Shown: positions 29,941 to 52,262 of the stretch, in pieces
Numbering within the stretch: position 1 is the first letter of the stretch
Layout of the letters: every line of letters starts with the position of its first letter
DNA from: Ruegeria denitrificans
Lineage (GTDB): Bacteria; Pseudomonadota; Alphaproteobacteria; Rhodobacterales; Rhodobacteraceae
DNA: 64,000 bases
Direction: 5' to 3'
NCBI RefSeq assembly: GCF_001458295.1
Contig: NZ_CYUD01000008.1
Coordinates: forward strand, 186,001-250,000
The notes under the pieces: model-generated
Database searches by the model: none
What the model was told of the DNA's origin: nothing
Seen by the model: only the letters and a program-made list of their open reading frames with translations
Position numbers and translations under genes: made by a program

Positions 29941-29947
29941 ATTTATC

Positions 29948-30605: not shown

Positions 30606-30654
30606 TGGAGGCGAGTACCGGAATCGAACCGGTGTACACGGATTTGTAATCCGC
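30606..30654 (-). repeat. Displaced tRNA-Cys 3' fragment (left attachment site)
   Basis: The 49 nt match positions 52189-52237 of the intact tRNA-Cys except at 30647 (T instead of C on the plus strand), which changes the anticodon position from GCA to ACA. The 5' half (acceptor strand and D arm) is missing, so it cannot fold into a tRNA. It is taken as the left attachment-site copy of the island. Confidence 0.88.
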
Positions 30655-31549
30655 GTACATCTCTGAAAGTTAAAGGAAATTTTGTAAACTGAAGGGCGGT
30701 TGGATCGCCAAATATCAATAGCTTACATGAAAATTGTAAACTACCAGTTTGCGTTGCAAGTGCATCCAGATGCTCACTGCATTGGTGATGTCATACTGAC
30801 GAAAGTATCCAAAGTCGCCAATACAGCTTTGAGCTATTCCCGTCCATGGATTAGGTCGGACCCATGACTCGATCAACTTGACAGGAAACGTAGAAGCGCT
30901 CCGGAGCGCGACCGTGCGTTCGGAGCGCCAAAAGAATGTCAGATTCATCCGAGAACTGCTTCCATCCCTACCACGTGAGCTACTGTTTCCCGAGCAGGCC
31001 CAGCTCGTCCGCAGCATCTACCTTTGGCTTCGCTATGAGTGTGTGTTGCCGCTCATAGGTTAGAAGCTTCATAGACCGCGCGGCACTTGAAATTGATGCC
31101 AGTACTAAATGAGGTCCGCGACGAAGAACGGCAATGGGAGGGTTCTGGTGTCATGGGGCTCGATGCAAACTCGGAACCCCAAAAGTCGTTCAACAAATCT
31201 TTCCTCTACAAACAAGTCGCAGGCCTCAGCTGGGCTGTCGGACCTGAAGCAAGACAAGACCAACTAAACTCGTGGCTTAGGTTCAGCGAGGTCAGCTAAA
31301 TCGAAATCAAGATTTCCTCTGGGTATTGGCCCGTTCTCGTTGAAACGGGAACAAATCACATGCAAATGAAATTTCGTTTATGAAATAAATTTCAAATATC
31401 AAAATTTATACCGAATGTATTTGACGCCTCCTTCGCGGCGACCTTAAAAGTGGAAGTGCAATAAACATCAATGAGTGAAATATCTTGCGATTCAGGTGAG
31501 GAGGAACAAGGCACCTAAACAGCAAGAGCTTTCTGCAGGGAGGAGATCT
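30655..31549. other. AT-richer island edge without a recognisable gene; leader of the first transporter operon
   Basis: About 0.9 kb. Only short frames occur (46 codons from the ATG at 30727; 61 codons at 30878-31063; 70 codons at 31087-31299), none with a family I recognise and none with a convincing ribosome site. The first 650 nt look like decayed DNA. From about 31320 the sequence turns very AT-rich with several inverted repeats, and it should hold the promoter and operator of the sugar-transport operon. Confidence 0.6.
31367..31394. promoter_or_regulatory. Candidate operator: TGAAATTT-N12-AAATTTCA
   Basis: A perfect 8-bp inverted repeat (31367-31374 and 31387-31394) with a nested ATTTC-N6-GAAAT. 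It lies 156 nt before the first substrate-binding-protein gene. The right arm is part of AATAAATTTCA, which recurs at 44417-44427 before the second transporter. It is a plausible site for one of the two SorC regulators of the island. Confidence 0.4.
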
Positions 31550-32566
31550 ATGAAGCACAGTGGATTAAACACATTCTTCGCATCCGCCGCATTGGCAGTT
31601 GCCGGAATCACCGCCGAGTCGACGCAGGCCGAAGGCATCATGTGTGAACCCGGCGAGACTTATGTTATGAACGTCATGGTTTCGGGCCACCCCTATTGGG
31701 TTCCGGTCTATCAGGGCTTCAAACAGGCGGCTGAGGCGTTCGGATGTGAGACCGTGTTCTCGGGCACGCCGGACTATGACATCACCAAGCAGATCGCCTC
31801 GTTCGAGCAGGATCTGGTTAAATCGCCCGCCGGTGTTCTGCTGCACCCGATGCAGTCCGACCCGTTCATCGAGCCGATCAACCGCGCCATCGACAACGGT
31901 ACCGATATCGTGACCTTTGCCGCTGACAGCCCGAATTCCAAGCGCACGGGCTATATCACATCGGACAACCATGCCGAGGCGAAGTTCGCAGCCGAAGAAA
32001 TCGTCAAACAGGTGGGTGACAGCGCCGAATATGCGGTTCTGGAAAACCCGGGCCAGTCGAACCATGACCTGCGCGTGACCTCTCTGATCGCTTATATGGA
32101 GGCGAACTATCCGAACATGAAACTGGTCGGTCGTCAGGCCACAAACCAGGATAGCAACGCAGCTTACCGTGCGACGGCCTCGATCATTCAGGCCAACCCG
32201 AACGTGGCCGCGATCTGGATCCCCGAGGCGGGCTCGGCAGAGGGTGCCGTGGCCGCCAAGCTGGAAGCCAATTCGGACATCCTGATCATGCACGCTGACG
32301 TGACGCCCACCACTCTGGAGCATATCCGGGCAGGCAACATCCACATGTCGCTGAACCCCAACCAAGGCGTTCAGGGCTTCATGGGCTTCATGGCGGTGCA
32401 TCTGGCAAACCGGGCGGACATCTTTGATCCGTTCAACGACTGGCAGACCAGCGGGTTCAACCCGGTTCAGATTCCGTTCATGGACAATGGCTTTGCGGTC
32501 ATCACCAAGGACAATGCGGACAGCTTTGATCTGAACGTCTACATGGAAGGCCGCGATCCGGCCTGA
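31550..32566 (+). CDS. Periplasmic sugar-binding protein of a ribose-type ABC transporter (module 1)
   Basis: 338 residues. Signal peptide about 1-30 ([21 protein letters not shown]...QAEG). The mature part is a Peripla_BP_4 / RbsB-LsrB-type fold: [44 protein letters not shown], and [18 protein letters not shown] near the C-terminus. ATG 31550 has GGAGGAG 5 nt upstream and starts the signal peptide; the open frame from 31475 is leader. It is the first gene of a long operon running to 44172, and is followed by an intercistronic hairpin. The ligand is unknown; the fold binds pentoses, hexoses, polyols or AI-2. Confidence 0.87.
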
Positions 32567-32585
32567 TCGGGAAAACTCCCCGGTA

Positions 32586-32620
32586 AACCGCCCGCGCAGT
32601 TCCGATTTTCGCGGGCGGTT
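32586..32620 (+). repeat. Intercistronic hairpin between binding-protein and ATPase genes
   Basis: AACCGCCCGCG (32586-32596) and CGCGGGCGGTT (32610-32620) make a perfect 11-bp stem with a 13-nt loop and no following T-run. Such a structure after a binding-protein gene usually protects or partly terminates the message, so that more binding protein than ATPase is made. A comparable stem occurs at the same place in module 2 (45558-45617). Confidence 0.7.
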
Positions 32621-32657
32621 CCAGCAACCAATAAGAAACACCCAAGAAGGTGCTGCC

Positions 32658-34172
32658 ATGCAAGACGATGTGATCCTCCGGATATCGAACCTCAGCAGAT
32701 CCTTTGGCCCGGTCAAAGCGCTGCGCGGGATCGACTTTGAACTCCGCAAGGGGGAAATCCACGCGATTGCAGGGGAAAACGGCGCAGGCAAGTCGACCTT
32801 GATGAACGTGATCGACGGGATTTTGCAACCAGACAGCGGCGAGATCGTTCTGGATGGCAAGCCGGTCAAAATCTCGTCGCCCACAATGGCGCAGAAACTG
32901 GGCATTGGCTTTGTGCATCAGGAAATCGCCTTGTGCCCGGATGTGTCGGTGGCCGAGAACATTTTCATGGCCAAGACCAATGTCAGCCGGTCGTGGCTGA
33001 TGGACTACAAAAAACTTGAGCGCGAGGCCGTCGATGTGTTCCGGCAGCTCAGCGATATTGATCCGTCGGTTCTGGTAAAGAACCTTTCGATCTCGAACCA
33101 ACAGCTGGTCGAGATCGCCAAAGCCCTGACGCTGGATTGCCGCATTCTGATCCTCGATGAGCCCACAGCCGCACTCACGGAAACCGAGGCTCAGACCCTG
33201 TTTGGGATCATGCGCAAACTGGCGGATCAAGGGATTTCGATCATCTATATCTCACACCGCATGGTCGAGATTTTCGACAATTGCGACCGGGTGTCGGTGT
33301 TCCGGGATGGGCAGCATATCGTCACCAATAACGTGGCCGATATCCTGCCCAGCGACGTGGTCAACGCGATGGTCGGGCGGGTGATCGACAATCTGTATCC
33401 TGAAAAGCAGGAGGCGCCGTCGGATGAGGTCACCCTCGATGTGCGCAACCTGACCGAGGCGACGCGGTTCCGCGATGTGAATTTCACGCTGAAAAAGGGT
33501 GAGATTCTCGGCATAGCGGGTCTGATCGGCGCGGGCCGCAGCGAGATCGTCAAAGGTATCTGCCAGTTGGAAGGTGACGTGACCGGACAGGTCTGGCTGA
33601 ACGGCGAGGAACTCAAGCTGCGTAATTACCAGGACAGCATCGCCAAGGGGATGGTGTACTTGTCCGAGGACCGCAAAGGGGATGGCGTGTTCCTCGACTT
33701 GCCCATCGCCGCAAACGTCTCGGCCCTGAAGCTTGAACAGGTCGCGAACGGGATTGGTCTGATCCAGTCGGGTACGGAAGAAGCGCAGGCCGAGGCGTTG
33801 GGACGCAAGCTGAACCTCAAATGCGGGTCACTGAACGATCCGGTGTCGTCCCTGTCAGGGGGCAATCAGCAAAAGGTGGCGCTGGCCAAGATGCTTTCGG
33901 TCAATCCGCGCCTGATCTTTCTGGATGAACCAACCCGCGGTGTCGATGTGGGCGCGAAGTCCGAGATTCACCGCATTCTGCGCGAATTGGCGAATGACGG
34001 CGTGGGCATCGTGGTGATTTCCTCGGAGCTGCCCGAATTGATTGGTGTCTGCGACCGGGTGCTGGTGGTGCGCGAAGGGCGCATCAGCGGGCAGGTCACG
34101 GGCGATGAGATGACAGAAGAAAACATTATGCACCTGGCCTCGGTCATGGACGCGCAGGCCTCGGTCGCATGA
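32658..34172 (+). CDS. Sugar ABC transporter ATPase with two nucleotide-binding domains (module 1)
   Basis: 504 residues, the normal size of RbsA/MglA/XylG proteins. Domain 1 has Walker [10 protein letters not shown] (about 41-49), signature [15 protein letters not shown] and Walker [13 protein letters not shown]. Domain 2 has a divergent Walker [10 protein letters not shown], the signature [15 protein letters not shown] and Walker [13 protein letters not shown]. This asymmetry is normal for the carbohydrate uptake transporter-2 group. AAGGTG lies about 5 nt before ATG 32658. It powers the single permease encoded next, with the binding protein upstream. Confidence 0.93.
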
Positions 34173-34186
34173 GCGGAGAGACGAAA

Positions 34187-35182
34187 ATGGACAACACCGT
34201 GAACCTGGCTCATGCGGGCGCGACCGACGGCACACCGTTCCTGAAACGCCTGCTGCGGATGCGCGAGACCGGGCTGATCGTGATCATTCTGATGCTGTTT
34301 CTGATCATGTCCCTTGCTTCGCCCTATTTTCTGACCTGGGCCAATATGCGCGCCATGTCGATGGCATTTGCCGTCGATGGCCTGCTGGTGATTGGGATGA
34401 CGATCCTGCTGATTTCGGGCGGGATCGATCTGTCGGTGGGATCAGTGACGGCACTGGCGATGGTGATCGCGGGGTGGCTGTTCCTCAGCGGAATTGACCC
34501 TTGGGTCGCCTCGGCCATGGCGATTGCGCTGTGTACGGGGATTGGAGCTTTTATGGGGTTCTTCGTGACCAAGGTAGGGCTGCACCATTTCATCGTGTCG
34601 CTCGCGATCATGGTGATCGCGCGGGGCGCTTGCCTGCTATTCACCGGAGGTCGACCACTGGGACTTTATACCCTGCCGCCCGAGTTCAAATTCATCGGGC
34701 AGGGCACCATCGGGCCGATCCCGATCGTGATCGTCATCTTTGTGGTCTTCGTGATCGCCTTTGACTTCATGCTGCGGCGCACGACTATGTTCCGTAAAGT
34801 GTTCTATACCGGCAGCAACGAAAAAGCCGCCGCTTATTCCGGCATCCGTACCAAAAAGGTGTTCTTTCTGACCACCACGCTGTGTTCCACGCTCTGCGGT
34901 ATCGCAGGTATTATCTACATGGCGCGCTTTGGTTCGGCCCAACCCACCTTTGGACTGGGGCTGGAGCTGACCATCATCGCCGCCGCGGTCATTGGTGGGG
35001 CCAGCCTGAATGGCGGCTCGGGGTCGATCCTTGGTGCGATCCTCGGCGTGATCCTGCTGTCATTGGTCTCCAGCTCCTTGGCGCTGCTGGATGTGTCGGT
35101 TTATTGGCAGGATATCATCCGCGGTTCGATCCTGTTGGCGGCGGTGACCATCGACCACTACCTGAACAAAAGGCGCGGGTGA
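34187..35182 (+). CDS. Sugar ABC transporter permease (module 1)
   Basis: 331 residues and about nine to ten membrane segments of the RbsC/BPD_transp_2 family, with the conserved TILLISGGIDLSVGSVTAL motif and the EAA-like GGASLNGGSGSILGAILGVILL stretch (short motifs SGGIDLSVGS and GGASLNGG). ATG 34187 has GGAGAG at good distance; an ATG at 34169 overlapping the ATPase stop would add six residues. As the only permease of module 1 it probably works as a homodimer. The stop overlaps the regulator start by one base. Confidence 0.9.
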   Translation: MDNTVNLAHAGATDGTPFLKRLLRMRETGLIVIILMLFLIMSLASPYFLTWANMRAMSMAFAVDGLLVIGMTILLISGGIDLSVGSVTALAMVIAGWLFLSGIDPWVASAMAIALCTGIGAFMGFFVTKVGLHHFIVSLAIMVIARGACLLFTGGRPLGLYTLPPEFKFIGQGTIGPIPIVIVIFVVFVIAFDFMLRRTTMFRKVFYTGSNEKAAAYSGIRTKKVFFLTTTLCSTLCGIAGIIYMARFGSAQPTFGLGLELTIIAAAVIGGASLNGGSGSILGAILGVILLSLVSSSLALLDVSVYWQDIIRGSILLAAVTIDHYLNKRRG

Positions 35183-36162
35183 TGGTCGACAAGAAAAAAG
35201 ACTTTGAATTGATCCGGCAGATCCACACCGTTCTGGTCCTGCATTACCTTGAGGGCAAGAAACAGGCCGAGATCGCGCGCGATCTGAACCTGTCGAATTC
35301 CAAGGTCAATCGCCTGATCACGCAGGGCCGCAAGATGGGCATGGTCAAGATCGATATCGAAAGCCCGTTCGAAACCTTGATGAATATCGAACACAGCCTG
35401 ACCCGGTCGTCCAGCCTGTCCGAAGCTATCGTGACCCCCTCGGTCACGGGCAGTGCAGAAGCGACGCTGCAACAGGTCGGTCGCGCTGCTGCGAGCCACC
35501 TGCTTGAGACCCTGCGCGATGGCGATGTCATCGCGATCACTGGGGGCAAGGCGGTCAGTGCCACGGTCGAGGCGTTGGAGCCCGAGCGTGATTTTGACGT
35601 TACCGTGGTGCCGCTGACCGGCGGCATTCAGGGCAAGTACTATACGGACGTGAACCATCTTGCGACGCTGATGGCCGACCGATTGGGCGGCAAAACCATG
35701 TTGCTTCACGCGCCTCTGTTTGCCGAAAGCCGCGATCAGCGCGATATGCTGGAACAGGTGTCCACGATCCGCGAAGTGCTGGACCTCGCCCGTCGCGCCA
35801 ATGTGGCGCTGGTGGGTGTCGGGTCCATCGAGCCCGAAGGTTCCAGCTACTACGACTTGCATCCGGTGCCCGAGGCCGACCGCAAGATGCTGATGGGCAT
35901 GGGCGTGATCGGAGAGTTCCTTGCTCATCTGATCCATATCGACGGATCTGTGTCAAATTATGCGCTGAATTCGCGGTTGGTCTCGGTTGCGCCGACCGAT
36001 CTGAGCCCATGCACACGAGTGATCGGTGTTAGTGCGGGGGCGCAAAAAGTATTTCCGATTAAGGCGGTGCTGAACGGAAAGTTTCTCAATTCGCTGATCC
36101 TGGACGAAGATACAGCGACCGCAGTCATACAGGAAATGGAAGGAACACGAGATGTCGCATGA
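35182..36162 (+). CDS. SorC-family transcriptional regulator (module 1)
   Basis: 326 residues. An N-terminal HTH (about 10-60, KKQAEIARDLNLSNSKVNRLITQGRK; short motif LSNSKVNRLI) is joined to a sugar-phosphate-binding domain with ITGGKAVSATVEAL, PLTGGIQGKYYTDVNHLA and VGVGSIEPEGSSYYD. The SorC/DeoR-like group, which includes LsrR, EryD and CggR, responds to phosphorylated sugars, so the likely effector is the product of the FGGY kinase. ATG 35182 overlaps the permease stop (TGATG). A paralogue ends module 2 (49326-50294). Confidence 0.9.
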   Translation: MVDKKKDFELIRQIHTVLVLHYLEGKKQAEIARDLNLSNSKVNRLITQGRKMGMVKIDIESPFETLMNIEHSLTRSSSLSEAIVTPSVTGSAEATLQQVGRAAASHLLETLRDGDVIAITGGKAVSATVEALEPERDFDVTVVPLTGGIQGKYYTDVNHLATLMADRLGGKTMLLHAPLFAESRDQRDMLEQVSTIREVLDLARRANVALVGVGSIEPEGSSYYDLHPVPEADRKMLMGMGVIGEFLAHLIHIDGSVSNYALNSRLVSVAPTDLSPCTRVIGVSAGAQKVFPIKAVLNGKFLNSLILDEDTATAVIQEMEGTRDVA

Positions 36163-37147
36163 GATGCTGACTCGCGAAATCGGAGCATCCGGGATCGAAG
36201 CCTCGGTCATCGGGCTGGGCACATGGGCCATCGGTGGCTGGATGTGGGGCGGCACGGATGAGGCCAAATCCATCGCCGCCATTCAGGCCTCGGTCGATGC
36301 GGGAGTGACACTGATCGACACGGCGCCTGCCTATGGGCAGGGCGTGGCCGAGGATATTGTGGGCAAAGCGCTGAAAGGCCGCCGCGACAAGGTGGTGCTG
36401 GCCACCAAATGCGGGCTGGTTTGGCACACGCAAAAGGGCGACCATTTCTTCGACTATGACGGCAAACCGGTGCATCGCTATCTGGGCAAGGACGCGATTA
36501 TCTATGAGGTCGAACAAAGCCTGACCCGTCTGGGCACCGACTATATCGACCACTACATCACCCACTGGCAGGACCCGACCACCCCCATCGCTGAGACGAT
36601 GGAGGCACTGGAGACCCTGAAACAGCAGGGCAAGATCCGGTCCATAGGGGCCAGCAACACATCGGCAGACGAGGTCAAAGCCTATGTGGCCGCCGGTCAG
36701 CTGGATGCGATTCAGGAAGAATATTCGATGGTCAAACGCGACATCGAAGGCACGCTGCTGCCCGTATGCCGTGAGAATGGCGTGTCGGTTCTCAGCTACT
36801 CCTCGCTGGCCTTGGGCCTGCTCAGCGGCAAGATCGGGCCGGATCGAGAGTTCACGGGCGACGATCAGCGTAAGGACAATCCACGTTTCTCCATGTCGAA
36901 CCGGCAGAAAGTGGCGGATCTGATGCAGACCATCGCACCCATTGCCGAAGCGCATGGCGCGACGCTGGCGCAGACGGTCATCGCGTGGACGGTGCAGCAA
37001 CCGGGGATCACCTTCTCGCTATGCGGCGCGCGCGATGCGGCGCAGGCGGTCGAGAATGCAAAGGCCGGTCAGTTGCGTCTGACCGAGGCCGAGATTGCCG
37101 AAATCGACACCCAGGCCCGCGCGCATCTGAGCGATCTGGACAGCTAA
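36152..37147 (+). CDS. Aldo/keto reductase
   Basis: 331 residues, a TIM-barrel AKR. The catalytic tetrad is complete: Asp56 and Tyr61 (IDTAPAYGQG), Lys86 (VLATKCG) and His138 (YITHWQDP). The C-terminal TLAQTVIAWTVQQPGIT segment is the NADP-binding side. AAGGA lies upstream of ATG 36152, which overlaps the SorC stop by 11 nt. In the operon it could reduce or oxidise an aldehyde or a sugar, for example a keto-sugar to a polyol or the short aldehyde released by the aldolase; the direction is unknown. Confidence 0.88.
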   Translation: MSHEMLTREIGASGIEASVIGLGTWAIGGWMWGGTDEAKSIAAIQASVDAGVTLIDTAPAYGQGVAEDIVGKALKGRRDKVVLATKCGLVWHTQKGDHFFDYDGKPVHRYLGKDAIIYEVEQSLTRLGTDYIDHYITHWQDPTTPIAETMEALETLKQQGKIRSIGASNTSADEVKAYVAAGQLDAIQEEYSMVKRDIEGTLLPVCRENGVSVLSYSSLALGLLSGKIGPDREFTGDDQRKDNPRFSMSNRQKVADLMQTIAPIAEAHGATLAQTVIAWTVQQPGITFSLCGARDAAQAVENAKAGQLRLTEAEIAEIDTQARAHLSDLDS

Positions 37148-37177
37148 GCCCTGAACCCCGTGAGAAACAGGACCACC

Positions 37178-38899
37178 ATGTCAGAACAACGACAACAAAA
37201 CCTGGCAATTCTGCGCAAAAACGCCGCGTTTGAGGTGGTGGTTGTCGGCGGGGGCGTCAACGGCATTGGGGTCTACCGCGAGCTGGCCCTGCAGGGCCTT
37301 CGGGTGCTTCTGGTTGAACGGAATGACTTTGCTTCGGGCTGCAGTGCTGCGCCCTCGCGGATGATCCATGGAGGGCTTCGTTATCTGGAGAATGGTGAGT
37401 TCGATCTGGTGCGGGAATCCCTGCAGGAACGCGATGCCCTACTTCTGAACGCACCGCATATGGTGCGGCCCTTGCCGACGGTCATTCCAATCACCTCGGT
37501 GTTTTCGGGTATGTTCAACGCAGCGGCCAGCTTTGTTGGCTGGCAGGGCAAGCCTTCGAGCCGGGGCGCAGTGCCGATCAAACTGGGCCTGTCGCTTTAT
37601 GATTGGGTAACGCGCAAGCGGCGCATCCTGCCCAGGCATCATTTCAACAGCGCCGGCCAGACCCGCAAGGACTGGCCCGCTTTGACCCCAAAGGCCACAC
37701 GCTCGGCGGTGTATTATGATGCCCAGATCACCCATCCTGAGCGGCTGTGCGTTGAGATGATCCGCGATGTCGCGGCCGAGGCCTCGGACTGCGTCGCGCT
37801 GAACTATGCGGAAATGACGCGGGATGGCGACAGCTATTCCGTCACCGACCGGCGCAGCGGCGCCACTGTGCCAGTGATGCCGAAAGTGATCGTCAACGCC
37901 ACCGGAGCGTGGCTTGATGACACGGTCAATGGGCTGGGTGGCCGGGTCAATGAACGGATGGTCTCGGGCACCAAGGGATCGCACCTGATCATCGACAATC
38001 CAGCGCTGCACCAAGCGCTTGGCGGTCATATGGTCTATTTTGAAAACACCGACGGGCGCGTCTGCATCGTCTTTCCCTATCAGGGCAAGGTCCTTGCCGG
38101 ATCAACCGATATCCGCGTCGACAAAGCCGCGCGGGTGCGGTGTGAGCCTGAGGAGTTCGACTATATCCTCGGTTCGCTGCGCCTGGTGTTTCCGGGGGTC
38201 GAGATTTCCCCGGATCAGGTGGTGTTTAGCTATAGCGGCATCCGCCCGCTGCCGCGCAGTGATCAGGATTTCACCGGGCGCATCTCGCGCGGGCATGATA
38301 CGCGGCGGCTGGACGGGGATGTGCCGCAATTCTGCATGGTCGGCGGCAAATGGACCACGTTCCGCGCCTTTGGTGAACAAACCGCAGATGAGGTGATGGC
38401 TGAGTTGGAGCACGCACGCCGGGCCTCGACCCTTGGGCTGCCCATTGGCGGCGGTGCGCAATTCCCTAATGCTCGTGAGAGCTTGAAATCCCGTCTGGTT
38501 GCGGATTTTCGGATCGCACCCGAGCGCGCACATCACCTGATGGAGCACTATGGGACACAGGCGGATGACGTGGCGCAGTTCTGCCAGTCGGTTCAGGACG
38601 CACCGCTTACGCAAGGATGCCTCTATACACGCGCCGAAATCATCTGGCTGACGCGCACCGAATATGTCGAGACCCTGTCCGACATCGTACTGCGCCGGAC
38701 CGCGTTGGCTATCACGGGGCAAATCTCGAACGCGCTGCTGGCACAGCTTGCCGATGTCTTTGCCCATGAGCGCGGCCTTGGCCCGCAAGAGACCAACGAT
38801 CAAAAACAAGCACTTATTCACGAATTGTCCGAGTTCTATGGCGTCACCGCCGAGGCTCTGGCCGCACGAAACAAGAAACGGAGAACAGAATGCGTGTAA
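37178..38899 (+). CDS. FAD-dependent glycerol-3-phosphate-dehydrogenase-like enzyme (GlpD/EryB type)
   Basis: 573 residues. FAD Rossmann motif VVVGGGVNGIGVYRELALQG near residue 24, then SRMIHGGLRYLENGEFDLVRE and VGGKWTTFRAFGEQTADEV, are the family signatures, with a C-terminal DAO domain (YTRAEIIWLTRTE). Relatives oxidise glycerol-3-phosphate (GlpD) or erythritol phosphate (EryB) with electron transfer to quinone. In this cluster it should oxidise the polyol phosphate made by the kinase to a keto-sugar phosphate. ATG 37178 has AGGA 6 nt upstream; the upstream GTG at 37160 is less likely. A housekeeping glpD would be expected elsewhere. Confidence 0.87.
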   Translation: MSEQRQQNLAILRKNAAFEVVVVGGGVNGIGVYRELALQGLRVLLVERNDFASGCSAAPSRMIHGGLRYLENGEFDLVRESLQERDALLLNAPHMVRPLPTVIPITSVFSGMFNAAASFVGWQGKPSSRGAVPIKLGLSLYDWVTRKRRILPRHHFNSAGQTRKDWPALTPKATRSAVYYDAQITHPERLCVEMIRDVAAEASDCVALNYAEMTRDGDSYSVTDRRSGATVPVMPKVIVNATGAWLDDTVNGLGGRVNERMVSGTKGSHLIIDNPALHQALGGHMVYFENTDGRVCIVFPYQGKVLAGSTDIRVDKAARVRCEPEEFDYILGSLRLVFPGVEISPDQVVFSYSGIRPLPRSDQDFTGRISRGHDTRRLDGDVPQFCMVGGKWTTFRAFGEQTADEVMAELEHARRASTLGLPIGGGAQFPNARESLKSRLVADFRIAPERAHHLMEHYGTQADDVAQFCQSVQDAPLTQGCLYTRAEIIWLTRTEYVETLSDIVLRRTALAITGQISNALLAQLADVFAHERGLGPQETNDQKQALIHELSEFYGVTAEALAARNKKRRTECV

Positions 38900-41236: not shown

Positions 41237-41240
41237 GCAA

Positions 41241-42251: not shown

Positions 42252-42270
42252 CCAGAAAGACCAGGAATTC

Positions 42271-43884: not shown

Positions 43885-43887
43885 AAT

Positions 43888-44172: not shown

Positions 44173-44528
44173 GCGCTGCGGGATTCGTTTTTTCGATTCT
44201 TTGCAGAGTTTCAGAAAGGTTTTTCTCTCTTTTTCCAACCGGATTTCATAGAGACCGTTTGCCTGCCGAGTGCTTGAATTCGTTTTGGTAAAATATCTCT
44301 TATTATCAGTGTATTGCGAGATCATTGGGCTGATCTCGAACGTCAATTTTTTTCATTGAAGAGTCGTCAAGAAAGTTGACTAAGTAAGAGGAAATGATAA
44401 TAATAACACTTACTGCAATAAATTTCAGACTCGGTTCCTGAGGAGAGGTGCTGACTGGGATCGCGGCTTTGGAGCGCATCGCTCCGGATCGACCGCACTC
44501 TGGAGAAAACAAAAGGGAAGAGAGAAAT
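44173..44528. other. AT-rich regulatory region before the second transporter
   Basis: 356 nt with no convincing gene. It holds a perfect inverted repeat CGAGATCA-N6-TGATCTCG (44317-44338) and the AATAAATTTCA motif (44417-44427) that also occurs before module 1. It probably carries the module 2 promoter and operator. No clear terminator for the upstream operon is seen. Confidence 0.6.
44317..44338. promoter_or_regulatory. Perfect palindrome, candidate SorC operator
   Basis: CGAGATCA and TGATCTCG arms of 8 bp with a 6-nt spacer (TTGGGC). It sits 190 nt before the module 2 binding-protein gene in an otherwise AT-rich stretch. No T-run follows, so it is more likely a protein-binding site than a terminator. 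Confidence 0.45.
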
Positions 44529-45545
44529 ATGCAGCGGAGGAATGTACTAAAGGCGGGCCTGCTGGCAACGACACTGACATTTGTAGGTGGGGCAGGGGCA
44601 TTTGCTGAGGATGGCAAGCGGATCGCGTTCTTTGTGTCTGACTTGTCGAACGTGTTTCACCAGTCTCAGGCGGCTGAAGCAGAGCGCTATGCCAAGGAAA
44701 AATACGGGGCCGAGGTTGTGGTGTTTGACGGGCAGGCGGATTCTGCCATGATGACCCAGAATGTCGATCAGGTTGTTGCGGGTGGTTTCGATGCCGCCAC
44801 ATTGCATATCTGGGATGCCGAGGCCGCGACGCCCGGCGTTGAAGACGCGCTGGCCGATGATGTCGTGATGACCTCGTTCTTCAGCCCAATTACCGATACC
44901 GGCATCCCGACCGCGCGCAGTGACGAGGCGGCAGTGTCTTTCGAGATGGGCGCGCAGATGGCGAAAGCTTGGAAAGAGGCGCATCCCGACAAGCCCATCG
45001 TGATGGTGCAGTTGGGCTGGCCGAACCATACCGAGGTGAATTCGGGCCGGACCGCGCCTTTTGCCGAAGGAGTACTGTCGGTTGACCCGGATGCGGAAAA
45101 TCTGGGCGCGCTGGATTCGAGCAAGGGTCAGGAAGCTGCGAAACAGATCATCGTGGACCTGCTGACGCAGCGGCCCGAAGTAAACTTGATTTACTCCGAG
45201 GCCTCTAACCTGACCGTTGGCACAATGGCCGGTCTGGCGCAACTGGGGCGCGGTAAGTTCGACAACGGAAAGCCTCTGACCGAAATCGTGGCGAGCGTCG
45301 ACTTTGACTCGGTCGAGTTCGAACAGGTCTATGACCCGAATTCCAGCCTCAAAGTCTCGATGGGTCTGCCGCCGGTTGAAACCGCACAGGGCCGTATTGA
45401 CCTGATCATGGATGTGCTTGATGGTAAGGTTCAGTCAACCTCGGACACTGCTGAAGAATTCTTCTACAAGGCCTACACCGTGTCCTACTGGTCGATGCCG
45501 AAAGAAGAGGCCGAACAGTGGCTGAAAGATCAGTTCGGCGGCTAA
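44529..45545 (+). CDS. Periplasmic sugar-binding protein of the second ABC transporter (module 2)
   Basis: 338 residues. Signal with a twin-arginine-like start (QRRNVLKAGLLATTL) and cleavage near AFA-EDG. The mature domain is Peripla_BP_4: IAFFVSDLSNVFHQSQAAEAERYAKEKYGAEVV (short motif FFVSDLSNVFHQ), QLGWPNHTEVNSGR, and ASVDFDSVEFEQVYDPNS. Little similarity to the module 1 binding protein is visible, so the ligand may differ. ATG 44529 has GGAAGAG upstream; the open frame from 44448 is leader. A hairpin follows at 45558. Confidence 0.87.
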   Translation: MQRRNVLKAGLLATTLTFVGGAGAFAEDGKRIAFFVSDLSNVFHQSQAAEAERYAKEKYGAEVVVFDGQADSAMMTQNVDQVVAGGFDAATLHIWDAEAATPGVEDALADDVVMTSFFSPITDTGIPTARSDEAAVSFEMGAQMAKAWKEAHPDKPIVMVQLGWPNHTEVNSGRTAPFAEGVLSVDPDAENLGALDSSKGQEAAKQIIVDLLTQRPEVNLIYSEASNLTVGTMAGLAQLGRGKFDNGKPLTEIVASVDFDSVEFEQVYDPNSSLKVSMGLPPVETAQGRIDLIMDVLDGKVQSTSDTAEEFFYKAYTVSYWSMPKEEAEQWLKDQFGG

Positions 45546-45557
45546 TAAGCACTTTTT

Positions 45558-45617
45558 GAACCGGGTTTGGCGGTCAGGTCCGTCGCCCAATCGCGGGTCT
45601 GACCTGCCATCCGGTTC
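45558..45617 (+). repeat. Long imperfect intercistronic hairpin
   Basis: GAACCGG (45558-45564) pairs with CCGGTTC (45611-45617), and inside it GGC with GCC and GTCAG with CTGAC, leaving small bulges. No T-run follows. It lies 13 nt past the binding-protein stop and 136 nt before the ATPase gene, matching the position of the stem in module 1. Confidence 0.6.
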
Positions 45618-45752
45618 TATACTTGTCGCCAATTCCGAAGCCTTACTCTCCCATAAGGTCCGGCGCTGGTGGCAACCTATCCAATCTCGGATAAGCTTGT
45701 TCCATGGACGCGACGGGATCGCGCGCGTCGTAGGCTTGCCAAATAGAAGGGG

Positions 45753-47282
45753 ATGATGATCGTGCAGACTGCCTTTGCCGCAAACGCACAGGAAAAAGCA
45801 CTGTCCATCAGAGACTTGACCAAGGACTATCCCGGTGTGCGCGCCGTGGATGCCGTGTCATTCGATATTGACCGCAATACGGTGCATTGTCTGGTCGGCG
45901 AGAACGGGGCCGGTAAATCGACCATCGTGAAGATGCTGACAGGCGCACTGGCCCCGACCAGCGGATCGATGGCCATTCTGGGCCGGACTTATGAGCCAGA
46001 CAGCACGCAGGATGCACGCGAAAGCGGGGTCGGCACGCTGTTTCAGGAACTGCACGTTGTCGATCAGCTGACCGTGCTGGAAAATCTGACCCTGGGGATG
46101 GAGGCCAGCCGGTTCGGCTTTCTGGTCAAGTCCGACCTTGAGGGGCGCGTGGTCAAAACCCTTGCCGCCATTGAGCCGACGATTGACCCCAAGGCGCGCG
46201 TCTCGTCGTTGAGTGTGGCACAGAAACAAATTGTTGAAATTGCCCGCGCGGCCTCATCAGGGGCCAGCATTATCATCATGGATGAACCGACTGCTGCTTT
46301 GTCGGAACGCGAGGTCGAGCGCTTGTTCGGTGTGATCCGCCGTCTGCGGGATTCGGATGTGACGGTCATCTATATCTCACACAAGCTGGATGAGATCTTT
46401 GAGCTGGGCGACAATGTCACCGTCATGCGTGACGGCAAGCACATAGCCACCAAACCTCTGGCGGACGTGAATGGCCGGCCTGAATTGATCGAAATGATGG
46501 TGGGGCGTGCAATTACCCATGACTACGAGCCGCGTGGCGATATTGCGGATAATCCGGTTTTGACGGTCAAGGGACTGACCAACCACCTGCTGAAAGACGT
46601 GTCTTTTCACGTGAAAGGGGGTGAGATCGTCGGCTTTTACGGTCTGGTCGGCGCAGGTAAGACCGAGGTTGCGCGCGCCATCTATGGGGCCGACAAAGCC
46701 GACGGGCAGATCGATTTCAAGGGCCGCAAACGTGCGGCTTCTCCCAAGGAGGCTATCGCCGCAGGCATCGCTCTGGTGCCCGAGGAGCGGCGTACGCAGG
46801 GTCTGTTCACCGAACTCGCGATCCGGCGCAACATTCCGATCATGAACATCCGTAAACTGGCCAGTTTCGGCGTTTTTCAGGATGAGCGTGAGAAAGAAGT
46901 CGCCCGCGAATATGTCGGCAAGCTGGGGATCGCAACAAATTCGATTGAGAAATATGCCGAGAAACTCTCGGGCGGGAACCAGCAAAAGGTGGTCCTGTCG
47001 AAATGCCTGTTTGCAGATGCGGATATGCTGTTGCTCGACGAACCCACACGCGGCGTCGATGTGGGCGCGAAATCCGAAATCTACGACCTGATCCGCGATC
47101 TGGCCAACAATGGCCGCGCGATCTGCATCTTTTCATCCGAACTCGAAGAGGTGCTGGGTATCTGCGACCGGGTTTTCCTGATGTACGACGGGCGGATCCA
47201 GGCTGAAATCAAGAACGGGACAGAGGTCGACATTCCGCATATCCTGAATGTTGTAACCGGCGGGGGCGGTGAAAACAAATGA
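45753..47282 (+). CDS. Sugar ABC transporter ATPase with two nucleotide-binding domains (module 2)
   Basis: 509 residues of the RbsA type. Domain 1: [41 protein letters not shown]. Domain 2: [41 protein letters not shown]. Start is ATG 45753 (or ATG 45756, or GTG 45762, which has the best spacing to AAGGGG). It overlaps the first permease by 4 nt (ATGA). It energises the two permeases of module 2. Confidence 0.92.
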   Translation: MMIVQTAFAANAQEKALSIRDLTKDYPGVRAVDAVSFDIDRNTVHCLVGENGAGKSTIVKMLTGALAPTSGSMAILGRTYEPDSTQDARESGVGTLFQELHVVDQLTVLENLTLGMEASRFGFLVKSDLEGRVVKTLAAIEPTIDPKARVSSLSVAQKQIVEIARAASSGASIIIMDEPTAALSEREVERLFGVIRRLRDSDVTVIYISHKLDEIFELGDNVTVMRDGKHIATKPLADVNGRPELIEMMVGRAITHDYEPRGDIADNPVLTVKGLTNHLLKDVSFHVKGGEIVGFYGLVGAGKTEVARAIYGADKADGQIDFKGRKRAASPKEAIAAGIALVPEERRTQGLFTELAIRRNIPIMNIRKLASFGVFQDEREKEVAREYVGKLGIATNSIEKYAEKLSGGNQQKVVLSKCLFADADMLLLDEPTRGVDVGAKSEIYDLIRDLANNGRAICIFSSELEEVLGICDRVFLMYDGRIQAEIKNGTEVDIPHILNVVTGGGGENK

Positions 47283-48310
47283 CCGATCAGGCAGTTGCAG
47301 GCCGCAGGCTGGCCAAACAGGACAACAGGCTGAGCGATGAGATGTTCATCACGTCTCTGGTGGCCGGGGCCGCTGTGGCGTTGTTCCTGCTGGCGTCCAT
47401 TCTGGTGCCGAATTTCTTTCAGTTTCAGAATGTTGTGAATCTGGTGACAAACAACTGGGCGGTGATCTCGCTGGGCGTTGGGGTCACGTTCCTGCTGGTC
47501 TCGGGCAATTTCGACCTGTCGGTCGGAGGTATCGTGGCGCTGTCCGGCGTGCTGGCAGTGTGGTTCGCGCAGGCGACGGATGGGGCCAACGCTCTGTCTT
47601 CGGGCTGGGGAATGCCCACGTGGCTGGCAATGGTCTGCGCGCTGATCGGCGCGATGTCGATCGGAGCCGTCAACGCCGCCTTTGTGGTCGCGCTGCGGGT
47701 GCCGTCGATCATTGTCACGCTGGGCACGATGATGCTGGCGCGCGGGATCGCTCAGGTGGTCACGCAAGGTTCGCAACGCAACACCAACCTGCCGGCGGAT
47801 TTCGGGACATTGGGGAACATGACCATGTTCGGCACCTCGATCAAACTGCCGGTGGTGCTAATGGCGACCCTGATCTTTGTGGCGGTGTTTGTCGAACGCA
47901 AGACCGTCTTCGGTCGGTTAACCTATCTGATCGGCGCCAACCCCGTCGCCTCGCGCCTGTCGGGGGTCGACAATGCGCGGCATGTGGTCAAGCTATACCT
48001 GTTCAGCGCAGTGATGGCTGGGGTGGTGGGTATCCTGCTCGCGTCCGAGTTCAAATCCGGGTTCTCCAACCGCGGCACATTGATGGAGTTTGACGCGCTG
48101 GTGATCTCATTGCTGGGCGGTGTTGCAATCGCGGGTGGGTTCGGCTCTGTCATCGGAATGTTCTTTGGCGCGATCATTCTGGCGACAGTGACCTCGGCGG
48201 CCACTGGGTTGGTGCTGTCGCCAGACTGGCAATTCACTCTAAAAGCCATCGCCGTGTTCATCGCGATCATGGCCCAGACATGGGCCCTGGCCCGGAGGCA
48301 CGCGGGATGA
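47279..48310 (+). CDS. Sugar ABC transporter permease A (module 2)
   Basis: 343 residues with about ten membrane segments, BPD_transp_2 family: TFLLVSGNFDLSVGGIVAL and GGVAIAGGFGSVIGMFFGA are the conserved RbsC-like motifs. Start ATG 47279 forms an ATGA overlap with the ATPase stop, and its stop overlaps the next permease start the same way. It probably pairs with the next permease as a heterodimer, as LsrC and LsrD do. Confidence 0.9.
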   Translation: MTDQAVAGRRLAKQDNRLSDEMFITSLVAGAAVALFLLASILVPNFFQFQNVVNLVTNNWAVISLGVGVTFLLVSGNFDLSVGGIVALSGVLAVWFAQATDGANALSSGWGMPTWLAMVCALIGAMSIGAVNAAFVVALRVPSIIVTLGTMMLARGIAQVVTQGSQRNTNLPADFGTLGNMTMFGTSIKLPVVLMATLIFVAVFVERKTVFGRLTYLIGANPVASRLSGVDNARHVVKLYLFSAVMAGVVGILLASEFKSGFSNRGTLMEFDALVISLLGGVAIAGGFGSVIGMFFGAIILATVTSAATGLVLSPDWQFTLKAIAVFIAIMAQTWALARRHAG

Positions 48311-49329
48311 CTGATTTGACCCAATCCCCACAATTCGGTGACCGGCTAAAACGGTTCCTGAAAGACTACTACATCTATTTGGTCCTGATCCTTGTGGTCG
48401 TAGTGCTCAGCACCGCCAATCTGGACAAGTTCCCGCTGTTCGAGCGCGGCAACTTCCTGAGTGAGCGCAATATCATCAACATCCTGCGCGTTTCGGCCCC
48501 GATCCTGACGCTTGCAGGGGCGTTTACGCTGCTGATGATCTCGGGCTATATTGACCTTTCCGTGGGTAGCGCCATGAGCCTAAGCGCGGTGGTCTATGCC
48601 CTGTTGGCCATCAACGGTGTACCCTTTGTACCTGCCTTTCTGGCAACAGTTTTGGTCGGTGTTCTGTTGGGCGCGATCAACGGCTTTCTTGTGATCCGAT
48701 TAAAGATTACGCCGGTGATCGCCACGCTGATCACACTGAGCCTCTATAAAGGTATCGCACTATTGTTGGTCGAAGATGGCGTTTCGGCCATCAAATCCGG
48801 CGGAGGGTTGAAAATGCCGGGTTGGTTTAACGACTATGGTCGCGATGGCGTCTTTTTTGGTCTGCCTTGGGCATTCTGGGTCGCCATTTTGGTCACGATC
48901 GCAATGATTGTCGCGCAGGATCGGATGAAGCTGGGGAAATACGCGGCAGCGACTGGGGGCAATCCAATGGCGGCGAAATTGTCGGGCATCGATACAGCGC
49001 GGACCGTGATCATCCTTTACGTGCTGGTTGGCATCTGCGCTGCATTGGCTGGGATCGCGCGGTCCAGCTTTATGTCGCTGGGCGATCCATTGTCAGGTGA
49101 CGGTATGGAGCTAACCGCTATACTTGTAGTTCTGTTGGGTGGTACTGCCTTCAGTGGCGGTGAAGGGCGTGTTCTGAAGTCCTTTATCGGGGCTCTGATA
49201 ATTATGTCCCTAACCGTCGGAATGTTGACACTGGTGCCCGCCTATTTCCAAACTCTTGTAGTGGGCACCGCGTTGTTGCTGGCAGCGGCGTCGAACCATT
49301 TGGTGAGCAGAAAGGACAGTGAAAGTTGA
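48307..49329 (+). CDS. Sugar ABC transporter permease B (module 2)
   Basis: 340 residues, again RbsC-like, with TLLMISGYIDLSVGSAMSL and LGGTAFSGGEGRVLKSFIGALI (short motif SGGEGRVLKS). ATG 48307 forms an ATGA overlap with the preceding permease. The frame upstream of it lies in that gene. Together with permease A it forms the channel of module 2. The stop overlaps the TTG start of the regulator. Confidence 0.9.
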   Translation: MTDLTQSPQFGDRLKRFLKDYYIYLVLILVVVVLSTANLDKFPLFERGNFLSERNIINILRVSAPILTLAGAFTLLMISGYIDLSVGSAMSLSAVVYALLAINGVPFVPAFLATVLVGVLLGAINGFLVIRLKITPVIATLITLSLYKGIALLLVEDGVSAIKSGGGLKMPGWFNDYGRDGVFFGLPWAFWVAILVTIAMIVAQDRMKLGKYAAATGGNPMAAKLSGIDTARTVIILYVLVGICAALAGIARSSFMSLGDPLSGDGMELTAILVVLLGGTAFSGGEGRVLKSFIGALIIMSLTVGMLTLVPAYFQTLVVGTALLLAAASNHLVSRKDSES

Positions 49330-50294
49330 ACGCAAGCGGACCTGACCCAAAAACCCTGCGCCTGATCGCACGTGTCCTGACTCTGCATTTTCAAGAAGGT
49401 CAACTGCAAGCGGAGATCGCAAAAAATCTAAGGTTGTCGACTGCAAAGGTTAACCGGCTTATCAAACAGGGCCGCGAAATGGGTATGGTCGAATTTCGTA
49501 TTCACAGCCCGTTTCAGCGATTGTTCAATCTGGAAAACCAACTGAAACAGCGATGGTCTGGTGTTGAGTTTCTTGTGGTCGATACCGTCACCGAGAATGC
49601 GGGTACCACGCTGGATTTGGTCGGTAAGGCAGCAGCTCAGCATCTTCAGGACATCGTGAAAAAGGACGATGTCATCGCAATTTCGGGAGGCAAAGCCCTG
49701 AGCGTTGTTGCCAATCACCTCCAACCTCAAGGAGCTACGTCGAACATTGTCATACCAATGACGGGCGGTGTTCAGGGACAGCACTATACAGACGTAAACC
49801 ATCTGGCGACGCGCATTGCAGACGGGCTTGGCGGTACGGCAACTCTTATCCACATTCCATTGCACGCAGATACCAAGGAAGAGCGCGACATGCTCCTGTC
49901 GGTCCGTGCGGTCAGCGATGTGCTCAATCAGGCACGGAACGCAAATGTCTCGTTATTGGGGCTGGGTGCAGTAACCGATGAGGATGCGACCTATTACAAA
50001 GCTCATCCGTTGTCTGACGAGGAACGGGTGAAGCTGTACAACAGCGGGGTTAGGGCTGAACTGCTCGGGCATCTGGTCGATTGTGAAGGTGAGTTATGCA
50101 GTAGTGCGCTTAACTCCAGACTTGTCAGCCTACCGCTTTTAGACGCTAAGTTGGTTCCAATACGTATTGGCGTAGCAAGCGGTAAAGAGAAAGTTGAACC
50201 GATATTGGCTGCATTAAATGGTCAACATATTAACACGTTAGTGGTTGATGAGGTAACGGCCCAATCAGCCTTGGATAGTGTGAAGAATAGATGA
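49326..50294 (+). CDS. SorC-family transcriptional regulator (module 2)
   Basis: 322 residues from TTG 49326 (overlapping TGA, with AGGA upstream). Clear paralogue of the module 1 regulator: HTH LQAEIAKNLRLSTAKVNRLIKQGREMGMV (short motif LSTAKVNRLI), then ISGGKALSVV, MTGGVQGQHYTDVNHLATRIADGLGG, and SALNSRLVSLPL. The last third is visibly more A+T-rich in codon choice than the rest of the operon. It should sense a phosphorylated sugar and control one or both modules. Confidence 0.88.
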   Translation: MNASGPDPKTLRLIARVLTLHFQEGQLQAEIAKNLRLSTAKVNRLIKQGREMGMVEFRIHSPFQRLFNLENQLKQRWSGVEFLVVDTVTENAGTTLDLVGKAAAQHLQDIVKKDDVIAISGGKALSVVANHLQPQGATSNIVIPMTGGVQGQHYTDVNHLATRIADGLGGTATLIHIPLHADTKEERDMLLSVRAVSDVLNQARNANVSLLGLGAVTDEDATYYKAHPLSDEERVKLYNSGVRAELLGHLVDCEGELCSSALNSRLVSLPLLDAKLVPIRIGVASGKEKVEPILAALNGQHINTLVVDEVTAQSALDSVKNR

Positions 50295-50357
50295 AATTTC
50301 TGCTTACACCCAGCTCTTCCGAGAGACTGTAGTGCCCCAAGAAGATCTAACTTGGTT

Positions 50358-50585
50358 TTACAGCCCTAACAGCTCTCGATCGGAGTCGCGTGAGATACGC
50401 TCGTGCAGCAGCTTGAGCAATCGATCCGCTTTGTCTCTCTCAATTTCCTCGAGAAGCTTCAAAACAGCCGAGCCATAGATAATCTTTTTGCGCGTTTCAT
50501 CGCGACGCCGTTGCTTGCTCGCTCGGGCCTGAAGGTCTCTCAGCTTCGCGCGCGTTTGCTCGATTTGTTGATCCAGGTCCGCCAT
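50358..50585 (-). CDS. Small MobC-like mobilisation protein
   Basis: 75 residues. An N-terminal coiled coil (DLDQQIEQTRAKLRDLQARAS) is followed by RRRDETRKKIIYGSAVLKLLEE and an end DRELLGL. This pattern, a basic coiled coil followed by RRKI-x-GA-x-LL and a terminal DR-x-LFGL-like tail, is typical of small MobC-type accessory proteins of relaxosomes next to MobA. ATG 50585 has GGAG 7 nt upstream. No relaxase gene remains beside it, so it is probably a leftover of a once mobile element. Assignment is by pattern only. Confidence 0.6.
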   Translation of the reverse strand: MADLDQQIEQTRAKLRDLQARASKQRRRDETRKKIIYGSAVLKLLEEIERDKADRLLKLLHERISRDSDRELLGL

Positions 50586-50600
50586 TTCGTTCTCCATTGA

Positions 50601-51242
50601 TTGAGGTGGTCGAACAGGAAATGCGGTCTGTATCCCGGCTTCGCCACCCGGGCGCGAAAATGTGGCTCCGCCAGGCCGCCGTGTGAGCGGCCGTCCGCAT
50701 GCCCGCTGGGCAAGCGTGTCGTGGTTGCTGCTTCAGAGGGTGGCCTGACCCCACAGGACATTGGCTTGCTGAAGCGCGAGCACGTGCAGAGGACCCCCAA
50801 AGGGCGCCGTCTGTTCTTTCGAAGAACAAAAACGGGCAAGCCAGCCGCGATCCCTGTGACACCGGCATTGGGCAAACTGATCGATGAAACACCGAGGGAA
50901 CAAGAATATCTCGTTGTTTCATTGGAAGGCCGAAAACTGCAGCCAGAGAGAGCGTCCGGCATCGTCCGCGAACTTCGTAAGAGGGCAAACAAACGCGCTG
51001 GAAAGGACCGCTCAAAAGTCCATGTGAGAGATGAGTTGCACTTCTACGACATGCGAGGAACGGCTGCTACAGAGCTTCTGCGGGCGGGCTGCTCACTGGA
51101 AGAGATTGCAACCACTATGGGGTGGGGCCTTCGCCATGCCGCAAACACCATCGAAAACTACGTCGCTTTGGTGCCGGAGAAATCAGATGAAGTGCTTTTG
51201 AAGCTGGCACGGGCCCGCAAAGAAGCTGGTGTCAAAGTGTGA
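50601..51242 (+). pseudogene. Truncated tyrosine recombinase / integrase (catalytic domain only)
   Basis: 213-codon frame; similarity begins at about 50715. Catalytic-domain landmarks are GLTPQDIGLLKREHV (where GLRxxDI is usual, so the first catalytic Arg seems lost), FFRRTKTGK (beta-sheet Lys), HFYDMRGTAATELL (Arg II present, Tyr in the place of the common His), TMGWGLRHA and the nucleophile Tyr in TIENYVAL. The N-terminal core-binding domain is missing: upstream lies the opposite-strand mobC-like gene. Its position beside tRNA-Cys fits the island's own integrase. The H-to-Y change may be normal in its subfamily. Confidence 0.72.
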
Positions 51243-51254
51243 GCTTTCTGTTCT

Positions 51255-52085
51255 TCAGTAAAAACTCGCCTGGAAACCCGTGGCGTTCAATGCGACATGA
51301 GCATCCAAAGGTGGGCGTAGTTCGAACGCCTTTGGTTCCCGTGAGAAATTCCATAGCCTGAAAAGGATCCAGTGGTCACGGTTTTGCTCTGCAACCGCCA
51401 ATTCGTTTCGGGAAATGTGAAGGGGTGTGCGCTCCCAGCCATTGGTCGTCTTTACCTCGATCAGGCGGCTGTTCTCTTCGGGCGTGTAGCTCGAAATAAC
51501 ATAACCGGCACCATCGCCATCTTCCTGGCTGACCCACCGCACCTTCGTTGCCAAGTCACGTCGGCCTGCATTGGTCAGAACGGCGCGTTCATGATGTAGA
51601 ACGCGCTCTTCCCCGGCCTTGCCCAGAGATCGGTTTCTCTCATCCCGTCCTGCCACATCGAATTTCCGTGCTACGGCCTGCATTTGTTCCAGTTCATCTG
51701 GAGGTGGCGTGTTTTGCATGGTCGGTAGCGTGCCGATCCAAATAGCTCCAAGAGCCTCCGATGCCCCCAAAGCCAGGGAAGGCCTCTCGGCAATCCATCC
51801 GCCGCGTTGCTGGAGATGCCGGGCAACCGCATCCACCAACGACATCTGAAAATTGAAGGCGGGTTTGTAACCATTGATCCATGTTTCACCCAAACCTTTG
51901 AGGACCGCCGATATGTTTTGGTGCTTGAACTCGATCGAACCCTTGGACCTATCGATCAACTCCTGCAAGGTGCGGTTATGGGCCGCCTTGTTGTATCTGT
52001 TGCCCGATAACTCATCAGAAAGCATGGAAAAATAGTCCACCACGATGGCGTCGTTTTCCTTATCTGACCATTCCTCATCGCTCAT
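51255..52085 (-). CDS. DUF3883-domain protein, putative PD-(D/E)xK nuclease-like
   Basis: 276 residues. The N-terminal part (about 1-80: KENDAIVVDYFSMLSDELSG..YNKAAHNRTLQELI) looks like the helical domain that often precedes DUF3883. The C-terminal part has GKAGEERVLHHERAVL, KVRWVSQEDGDGAGYVISSY and NSRLIEVKTTNG, in which GDGAGYDI-like and IEVKTT match the D...ExK core of the restriction-endonuclease fold. Such proteins are common in defence and mobile islands. It lies between the integrase remnant and tRNA-Cys. No partner methylase or helicase is present. Function is unproven. Confidence 0.72.
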   Translation of the reverse strand: MSDEEWSDKENDAIVVDYFSMLSDELSGNRYNKAAHNRTLQELIDRSKGSIEFKHQNISAVLKGLGETWINGYKPAFNFQMSLVDAVARHLQQRGGWIAERPSLALGASEALGAIWIGTLPTMQNTPPPDELEQMQAVARKFDVAGRDERNRSLGKAGEERVLHHERAVLTNAGRRDLATKVRWVSQEDGDGAGYVISSYTPEENSRLIEVKTTNGWERTPLHISRNELAVAEQNRDHWILFRLWNFSREPKAFELRPPLDAHVALNATGFQASFY

Positions 52086-52188
52086 GGCGCCAGGCTATGC
52101 GAAGGGTTTCCTGATGTCATGCACAGGAATATTTGCGGCCACGGTGTAAACCGGCTGTAAACTGAGCGATGCAATTTTCGCTAAGTGT

Positions 52189-52262
52189 TGGAGGCGAGTA
52201 CCGGAATCGAACCGGTGTACACGGATTTGCAATCCGCTGCGTCACCACTCCGCCAACTCGCC
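52189..52262 (-). tRNA. tRNA-Cys (anticodon GCA)
   Basis: Read on the minus strand, a 74-nt cloverleaf runs from GGCGAGTTGGCGGAGTGG to CTCGCCTCCA. The acceptor arms GGCGAG/CTCGCC pair, the anticodon arm is GCGGATTGCAAATCCGT with GCA, the T arm is CCGGTTCGATTCCGG, and CCA is encoded. Its 3' 49 nt recur at 30606-30654, marking it as the integration site of the island. Confidence 0.95.

Follow-up and report, generated by a model that had tools for sequence, protein, structure and literature searches.

We analysed a 64,000-nucleotide stretch of the Ruegeria denitrificans genome (contig NZ_CYUD01000008.1, positions 186,001 to 250,000; hereafter the window) and conclude, with a probability of roughly 85%, that a genomic island entered the chromosome at a tRNA-Cys gene by site-specific recombination, is now probably stranded there and carries a separate, portable cassette with two importers.

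ARAGORN found a single tRNA in the window, an intact tRNA-Cys(gca) on the minus strand (52262-52189) with its CCA end encoded. Its 3' part, which runs from the encoded CCA to a point slightly beyond the anticodon (52189-52237), recurs at 30606-30654 in the same orientation (minus strand), 21,583 bp away from start to start and with 48 of 49 bases identical, as an earlier model-made reading of these letters (the sequence-only reading) had noticed. A repeat search allowing up to three mismatches returned just these two sites in the window and none in 100 shuffles. Moreover, a 75-nt tRNA query against the whole 4.62-Mb genome matched at two places only, the sole full match being the intact gene. 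In the displaced copy the lone mismatch (30647) affects the first base of the anticodon, at a distance of seven bases from the end facing the island, and may reflect either drift in a dead copy or inheritance from the attachment-site (att) copy of the element itself.

We located the two host genes flanking the site, a HIBADH-family dehydrogenase on the left (28922-29878, plus strand) and a PCMT-family gene on the right (52478-53143, plus strand), in 54 Ruegeria genomes (R. denitrificans being counted in this and all later genome totals, except where other genomes are specified) and measured the intervals between them. The tRNA-Cys stands 204-230 bp before the PCMT gene in all 54. On the left, 35 genomes could be measured, since in the other 19 the HIBADH gene is on a different contig, at another place or beyond the stretch measured; the contig-end piece of G029 (genomes carry G handles where they need to be told apart) was left out of the census. 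Eight of the 35 (G009, G019, G022, G031, G034, G062, G063 and G067) had a clean empty site, with HIBADH 42-46 bp from tRNA-Cys, and one of these, G019, is the closest relative by its flank genes (protein identity 96% for HIBADH and 93% for PCMT). The interval was 141-389 bp in five genomes and 766-22,310 bp in 22, the latter including R. denitrificans. Displaced pieces of the tRNA 3' end were found in six other genomes 36-43 nt after HIBADH, at the spot predicted by the empty sites (G004, 14 nt; G005, 22 nt; G011, 44 nt at 82%; G012, 44 nt; G061, 17 nt at 94%; G074, 14 nt), and the window, G001, G018 and G073 have long displaced pieces away from this ancestral spot; a number of other matches are weak or short and may be chance (G007, G015, G024, G027, G035, G068 and G075). 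The intervals and the displaced pieces together show that tRNA-Cys is an insertion site used repeatedly within Ruegeria.

At its right border the island starts exactly at the tRNA 3' end. At the left border, when 10-mers of the window were scored against the eight empty-site flanks, the 10 bases outside the displaced copy ranked in the top 0.3%, and the 10 bases beside the intact tRNA had an ordinary score (47%) against the same flanks; the outer flanks of the six ancestral-spot pieces reached the top 2.4% or better, and those of G001, G018 and G073 stood at 31-56%. Judged by these scores, the displaced copy of the window most likely carries the true host flank, the evidence for the left junction consisting of about 10 flank bases only. 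Insertion at the tRNA-Cys 3' end, as proposed in the sequence-only reading, is thus well supported by the eight clean empty sites, the exact right junction and the host-like flank outside the displaced copy; moreover, no relative carried the gene cluster at this place without the repeat, the aldolase lying elsewhere in the seven other Ruegeria carriers. The accompanying prediction that in strains without the island the sequence left of 30606 would immediately follow tRNA-Cys held for the nearest 10 bases or so and failed beyond them, because 727 bp (29879-30605) lie between HIBADH and the displaced copy in the window, compared with the 42-46 bp between HIBADH and tRNA-Cys in the empty sites.

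About 950 bp from tRNA-Cys we identified the C-terminal remnant of a tyrosine integrase (50601-51239, plus strand; PF00589, E 3.8e-10; PHROG integrase match), separated from the tRNA by a gene for a NOV_C/DUF3883 protein (51258-52085, minus strand; PF13020). Integrase relatives were present in three of the 54 genomes, each adjoining tRNA-Cys and reading towards it; those of G028 and G068 have the same orientation as the remnant and 43-45% identity with it, and their open reading frames (ORFs) are 426 and 389 aa long. Compared with these two, the remnant is short of roughly 160-200 N-terminal residues and has Thr at the GLR-motif position where both keep Arg, which we take to be the first catalytic arginine of the tyrosine integrase family. 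The remnant is probably not functional and, since both the N-terminal part and the conserved Arg are gone, the island is unlikely to excise by its own enzyme; on this evidence it is probably stranded and no longer mobile by its own means. No relaxase or transfer genes were found among 20 island ORFs scanned with Pfam. The integrase remnant and the DUF3883 gene had both been placed at the tRNA end by the sequence-only reading, correctly in either case, and 8 of the 10 plasmid matches listed for the latter are annotated DUF3883. The label "MobC-like", given there to a small neighbouring ORF (50364-50591, minus strand, 76 aa), found no backing, as this ORF had no meaningful Pfam match (best E 0.39) and no PHROG match; its protein family is unconfirmed, and its relatives occur in 19 of the 295 genomes searched from the bacterial family. 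When the right island end was compared with plasmids, 22 records matched, and the 10 listed matched the NOV_C-gene part only. NOV_C relatives were present in six of the 54 genus genomes, the other five not being beside PCMT.

Mechanistically, an element bearing an attP copy of the tRNA 3' part would have met the chromosomal tRNA-Cys, where its tyrosine integrase presumably acted. Crossover within the shared stretch would have restored a whole tRNA at the right border (attL, 52189-52262, of which 52189-52237 is the attL copy of the repeat) and pushed the original tRNA 3' end to the left (attR, 30606-30654); later loss of the N-terminal part of the integrase and of its conserved arginine would have ended self-mobility. 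Islands borne by tRNA genes and equipped with a tyrosine integrase duplicate the tRNA 3' end as a direct repeat, leave the tRNA intact, keep the integrase adjacent and have empty sites in relatives. The window shares with them the direct repeat at both borders, the intact tRNA, the adjoining integrase and the empty sites, but differs in its truncated integrase, in the extra DNA outside the left repeat and in a cargo that is also an independent cassette. With the islands of G028 and G068 it shares an integrase next to tRNA-Cys in the same orientation; in both genomes this integrase type stands beside other genes than in the window, and the cargo genes of the window are absent from G028 beyond distant ABC ATPases.

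The cargo is a catabolic cassette on the plus strand, delimited by DNA similarity to the G074 copy at 31381-50275 (31538 and 50263 by similarity to the G076 copy), in which one enzymatic module lies between two importers, here called T1 and T2. Both have the hallmarks of ribose-type ABC importers, namely a PF13407 binding protein, an ATPase with two ABC domains and a PF02653 permease. T1 comprises a sugar-binding protein (31475-32566), an ATPase (32658-34172) and a permease (34169-35182), and is followed by a SorC/DeoR-type sugar-binding regulator (35179-36162, start approximate; PF04198). The module consists of an aldo/keto reductase (36152-37147), a GlpD-like FAD dehydrogenase (37160-38899; DAO and DAO_C), a class I DeoC/LacD aldolase distantly like LsrF (38890-39732), an FGGY carbohydrate kinase (39725-41236), a zinc-binding alcohol dehydrogenase family protein (41241-42251; passes TIGR02817) and a choline-dehydrogenase-like GMC oxidoreductase (42235-43884); the next gene encodes an ABM-domain protein distantly like LsrG (43888-44172). 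T2 comprises a sugar-binding protein (44448-45545), an ATPase (45753-47282) and two permeases (a, 47279-48310; b, 48280-49329), and a second SorC/DeoR-type sugar-binding regulator closes the row (49326-50294).

This cassette is not confined to the island. The aldolase occurs in 8 of the 54 Ruegeria genomes and in 22 of the 295 family genomes, the other 21 at 94% down to 48% identity. Two other Ruegeria genomes carry the whole cassette (G076 and G074) and five others carry parts of it (T1-type in G069 and G009, T2-type in G033 and G018, one of each in G075). In these seven carriers the aldolase lies on a different contig from the tRNA-Cys/PCMT pair (six genomes) or 83 kb from it (G074), and G009 has a T1-type cassette on contig C46 while its tRNA-Cys site is empty. 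Eight carrier stretches that were read (14.7-40 kb) contained no integrase, NOV_C gene or tRNA-Cys, one of them having a tRNA-Ala. The 18.9-kb cassette is thus a unit of its own, present at different loci in many Alphaproteobacteria. Of the proposal that the island delivers a two-transporter pathway as one unit, the insertion at tRNA-Cys therefore stands and joint delivery is unproven, since the cassette is found elsewhere, whole in two and partial in five Ruegeria, without integrase or repeat. It may have come with the element or have been captured by it, and we consider single delivery and later capture about equally probable.

Capture would imply an origin in two steps, with a small integrase element arriving first and the cassette joining it later by ordinary recombination; this variant is compatible with the island reading, and we give it a chance only just below even. 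Consistently with it, the cassette's own limits (31381 and 50275) leave out both island ends, which are AT-richer than the cassette; none of the seven other Ruegeria with a whole or partial cassette has it next to tRNA-Cys; and the same integrase type has other genes for company in G028 and G068. In contrast, no transposase ORF was recognised in a six-frame listing of the two island ends, which was not aimed at scars or target duplications, and a single arrival explains the repeat equally well.

Less probable, and in our view unlikely, is that the displaced 49-mer was left by a different, older insertion, in which case 30606-52188 would not be one island but the product of several separate events at this hot spot. 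The site has been used repeatedly (22 of 35 intervals exceed 700 bp), the DNA at 29879-30605 records other insertion and decay right beside the displaced copy, and the displaced copies of G001, G018 and G073 lie away from host-like flank. However, the outer flank of the window's copy resembles that of the empty sites (top 0.3%), and this copy is intact at 48 of 49 positions, whereas five of the six ancestral-spot pieces are shortened or degraded.

Several further observations weigh against an island inserted as we propose. The left junction is unclean, with the 727 bp described above in place of 42-46 bp, and of the four long off-spot displaced copies (that of the window, genome G000, and those of G001, G018 and G073) the first alone is bordered by host-like sequence. 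Within the DNA retrieved from G028 no displaced copy was seen, and G068 had just a weak 32-nt match, so that it is from the position of this integrase that we deduce its att site to be the tRNA 3' end. GC content shows no break between the cassette (0.54-0.61) and the flanks (0.58-0.65 on the left, partly as low as 0.54-0.56 on the right), the DNA being AT-richer at the island ends only (about 0.50-0.54). Moreover, the cassette is no very recent arrival from any carrier compared: identity at 4-fold sites was 49-56% for the cassette and 39-51% for core genes (cassette/core 54.6/50.0, 55.6/50.7, 49.3/48.3, 55.7/39.1 and 54.5/39.8, the last two resting on 4 and 3 core genes), so that the cassette is as diverged as the core genes, or slightly less, and no recent donor is visible.

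The DNA around the left border has features of its own. Two apparently decayed pieces between HIBADH and attR (29949-30088 and 30124-30432) resemble the sequences flanking a HIBADH paralogue that sits away from tRNA-Cys in several relatives, such as G013 and G064, and part of 29879-30605 matches short conserved DNA in 51 of the 54 genomes. The AT-richer left island end (30655-31380) contains one scanned ORF (30718-31017, minus strand) with no Pfam match, and a plasmid search with this region gave no match. Among relatives, the HIBADH gene beside tRNA-Cys is broken into two frames in G010 (L085), and look-alike ORF runs with similar start sequences stand next to HIBADH in G003, G007 and G068 (L075, L074 and L255).

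Some copies of the cassette or of its aldolase bear on its travels. The T2-type cassettes of G075 (contig C9; L168, L169) and G018 (contig C54; L170, L171) are 98.9% identical over 14.4 kb, the G075 copy has the same short sequence at either end, and one ORF in that region resembles a putative IS6-type transposase, which suggests a recent transposon-borne transfer. A Photobacterium plasmid (NZ_CP073579.1, 197904-198740) carries an aldolase 68.5% identical to that of the window, a possible transfer far outside the Alphaproteobacteria. In Pseudovibrio flavus a T2-type cassette (L234:1524-16865) ends about 1.9 kb from tRNA-Cys and PCMT, and this gap contains one AraC-type and one transglutaminase-like gene; we rejected this cassette as an independent use of the tRNA-Cys site, the genome having given only weak matches besides the tRNA itself.

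Relatives of the catabolic module were classified by their importers, using the best 80 of 105 and loci of at most 20.8 kb, so that a more distant second importer would escape. T1 stood upstream in 62 loci, T2 upstream in 14, T1 upstream together with T2 downstream in three (Ruegeria sp. THAF57, Ruegeria sp. Ofav3-42 and Shimia abyssi DSM 100673) and neither in one. In these three, as in the window, T1 precedes and T2 follows a single module; the THAF57 and Ofav3-42 copies differ in lying at other loci, without the tRNA-Cys repeat or the integrase remnant, and the Shimia copy is known within its 20.8-kb locus only. A tree was built from four catabolic proteins of the window and of 75 of the 80 loci (five being dropped for incomplete genes); in it, the double-importer loci, the window and two T1-only Ruegeria loci formed one clade (support 0.94). 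T2 appeared in three separate clades, and the tree required five changes of importer label compared with a mean of 16.2 and a minimum of 12 in 500 shuffles. Thus the importers were swapped a few times during the history of the module, although one T2 clade consists of a lone leaf next to a node of low support (0.70). Since T1 and T2 replace each other in relatives, which is suggestive rather than proof, they most likely bring in substrates of the same route.

The operon-like cassette joins one catabolic module to two ABC importers for sugars, and either importer is accompanied by a SorC-type regulator. We infer a complete carbohydrate pathway for a sugar or sugar alcohol, which would be imported, phosphorylated by the FGGY kinase, oxidised by the GlpD-like dehydrogenase and split by the class I aldolase into central intermediates, with the aldo/keto reductase, zinc-binding alcohol dehydrogenase and GMC oxidoreductase around this core. 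More broadly, and tentatively, at odds a shade under even, we picture a portable and undescribed kinase/GlpD-type dehydrogenase/class I aldolase pathway whose two sets of importer and regulator were exchanged about three times and later combined on one module as two separately regulated doors, and which in this lineage was parked at tRNA-Cys, a docking site used throughout the genus. An open-access literature search found no function for the T1/T2 catabolic operon and no published account of a Ruegeria tRNA-Cys island site or of the double-importer cassette, and plasmid copies (Alloyangia, Parasedimentitalea and Rhizobium) are annotated by family name only. Operons of T1 type in Rhizobium etli (p42b), R. 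leguminosarum and Sinorhizobium meliloti (pSymB) have the same order of T1, SorC-type regulator, aldo/keto reductase, GlpD-like dehydrogenase, aldolase, FGGY kinase and GMC enzyme; unlike the window cassette they are plasmid-borne, and no T2 after the module and no zinc-binding alcohol dehydrogenase were found in those stretches.

Family names also prompted the idea that the cargo is an autoinducer-2 (AI-2; Lsr) uptake and processing system, which is now highly improbable. The cargo shares protein families with LsrA/C/D, LsrR, LsrK, LsrF and LsrG, and the best solved-structure match of its kinase is an AI-2 kinase. Nevertheless, curated cut-offs speak against an Lsr operon: all Lsr models listed scored far below them (for example, LsrK 202 of 528, LsrF 104 of 297, LsrG 22 of 135, LsrR 137 and 147 of 486), the LsrB model gave 40 bits of 384 for one binding protein and was not listed for the other, and an LsrG-like gene was present in only 2 of the 40 related loci listed.

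We likewise rejected an erythritol (ery) locus. Regulator, transporter, kinase and dehydrogenase stand together in both, but the family overlap is partial, the Ery proteins themselves not having been compared. The window cassette has aldo/keto reductase, alcohol dehydrogenase and GMC genes, and no isomerase family was found among the 20 ORFs scanned, where EryC, RpiB and TpiB would be expected. According to one study, ery loci are absent from R. etli, and an aldolase gene is mentioned in a few of them (PMC3599248); R. etli, reported to be without ery loci, does carry a T1-type operon. In S. meliloti 1021 the T1-type operon of pSymB extends from the binding protein to the GMC enzyme (L279:4547-16019). 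Psicose is predicted as substrate for SupABCD, encoded by Smb20484-Smb20487, in another report (PMC4961836); these genes could not be equated with those of the pSymB operon, and the clue was left unused.

That the repeat itself is due to chance or misassembly has next to no probability, given its absence from 100 shuffles and the consistency of flanks and empty sites among relatives. The repeat and the insertion at tRNA-Cys are genuine and of a familiar type, and the greater interest lies in the portable cassette with its two importers and in a docking site found across the genus. With its eight empty-site controls, the tRNA-Cys/PCMT site makes the gain and decay of marine islands traceable in one place. 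The T1-type operon on S. meliloti pSymB is a tractable place for finding the substrate by mutation, and the alternation of importers around one module offers a testable route to the substrate of a widespread alphaproteobacterial operon.

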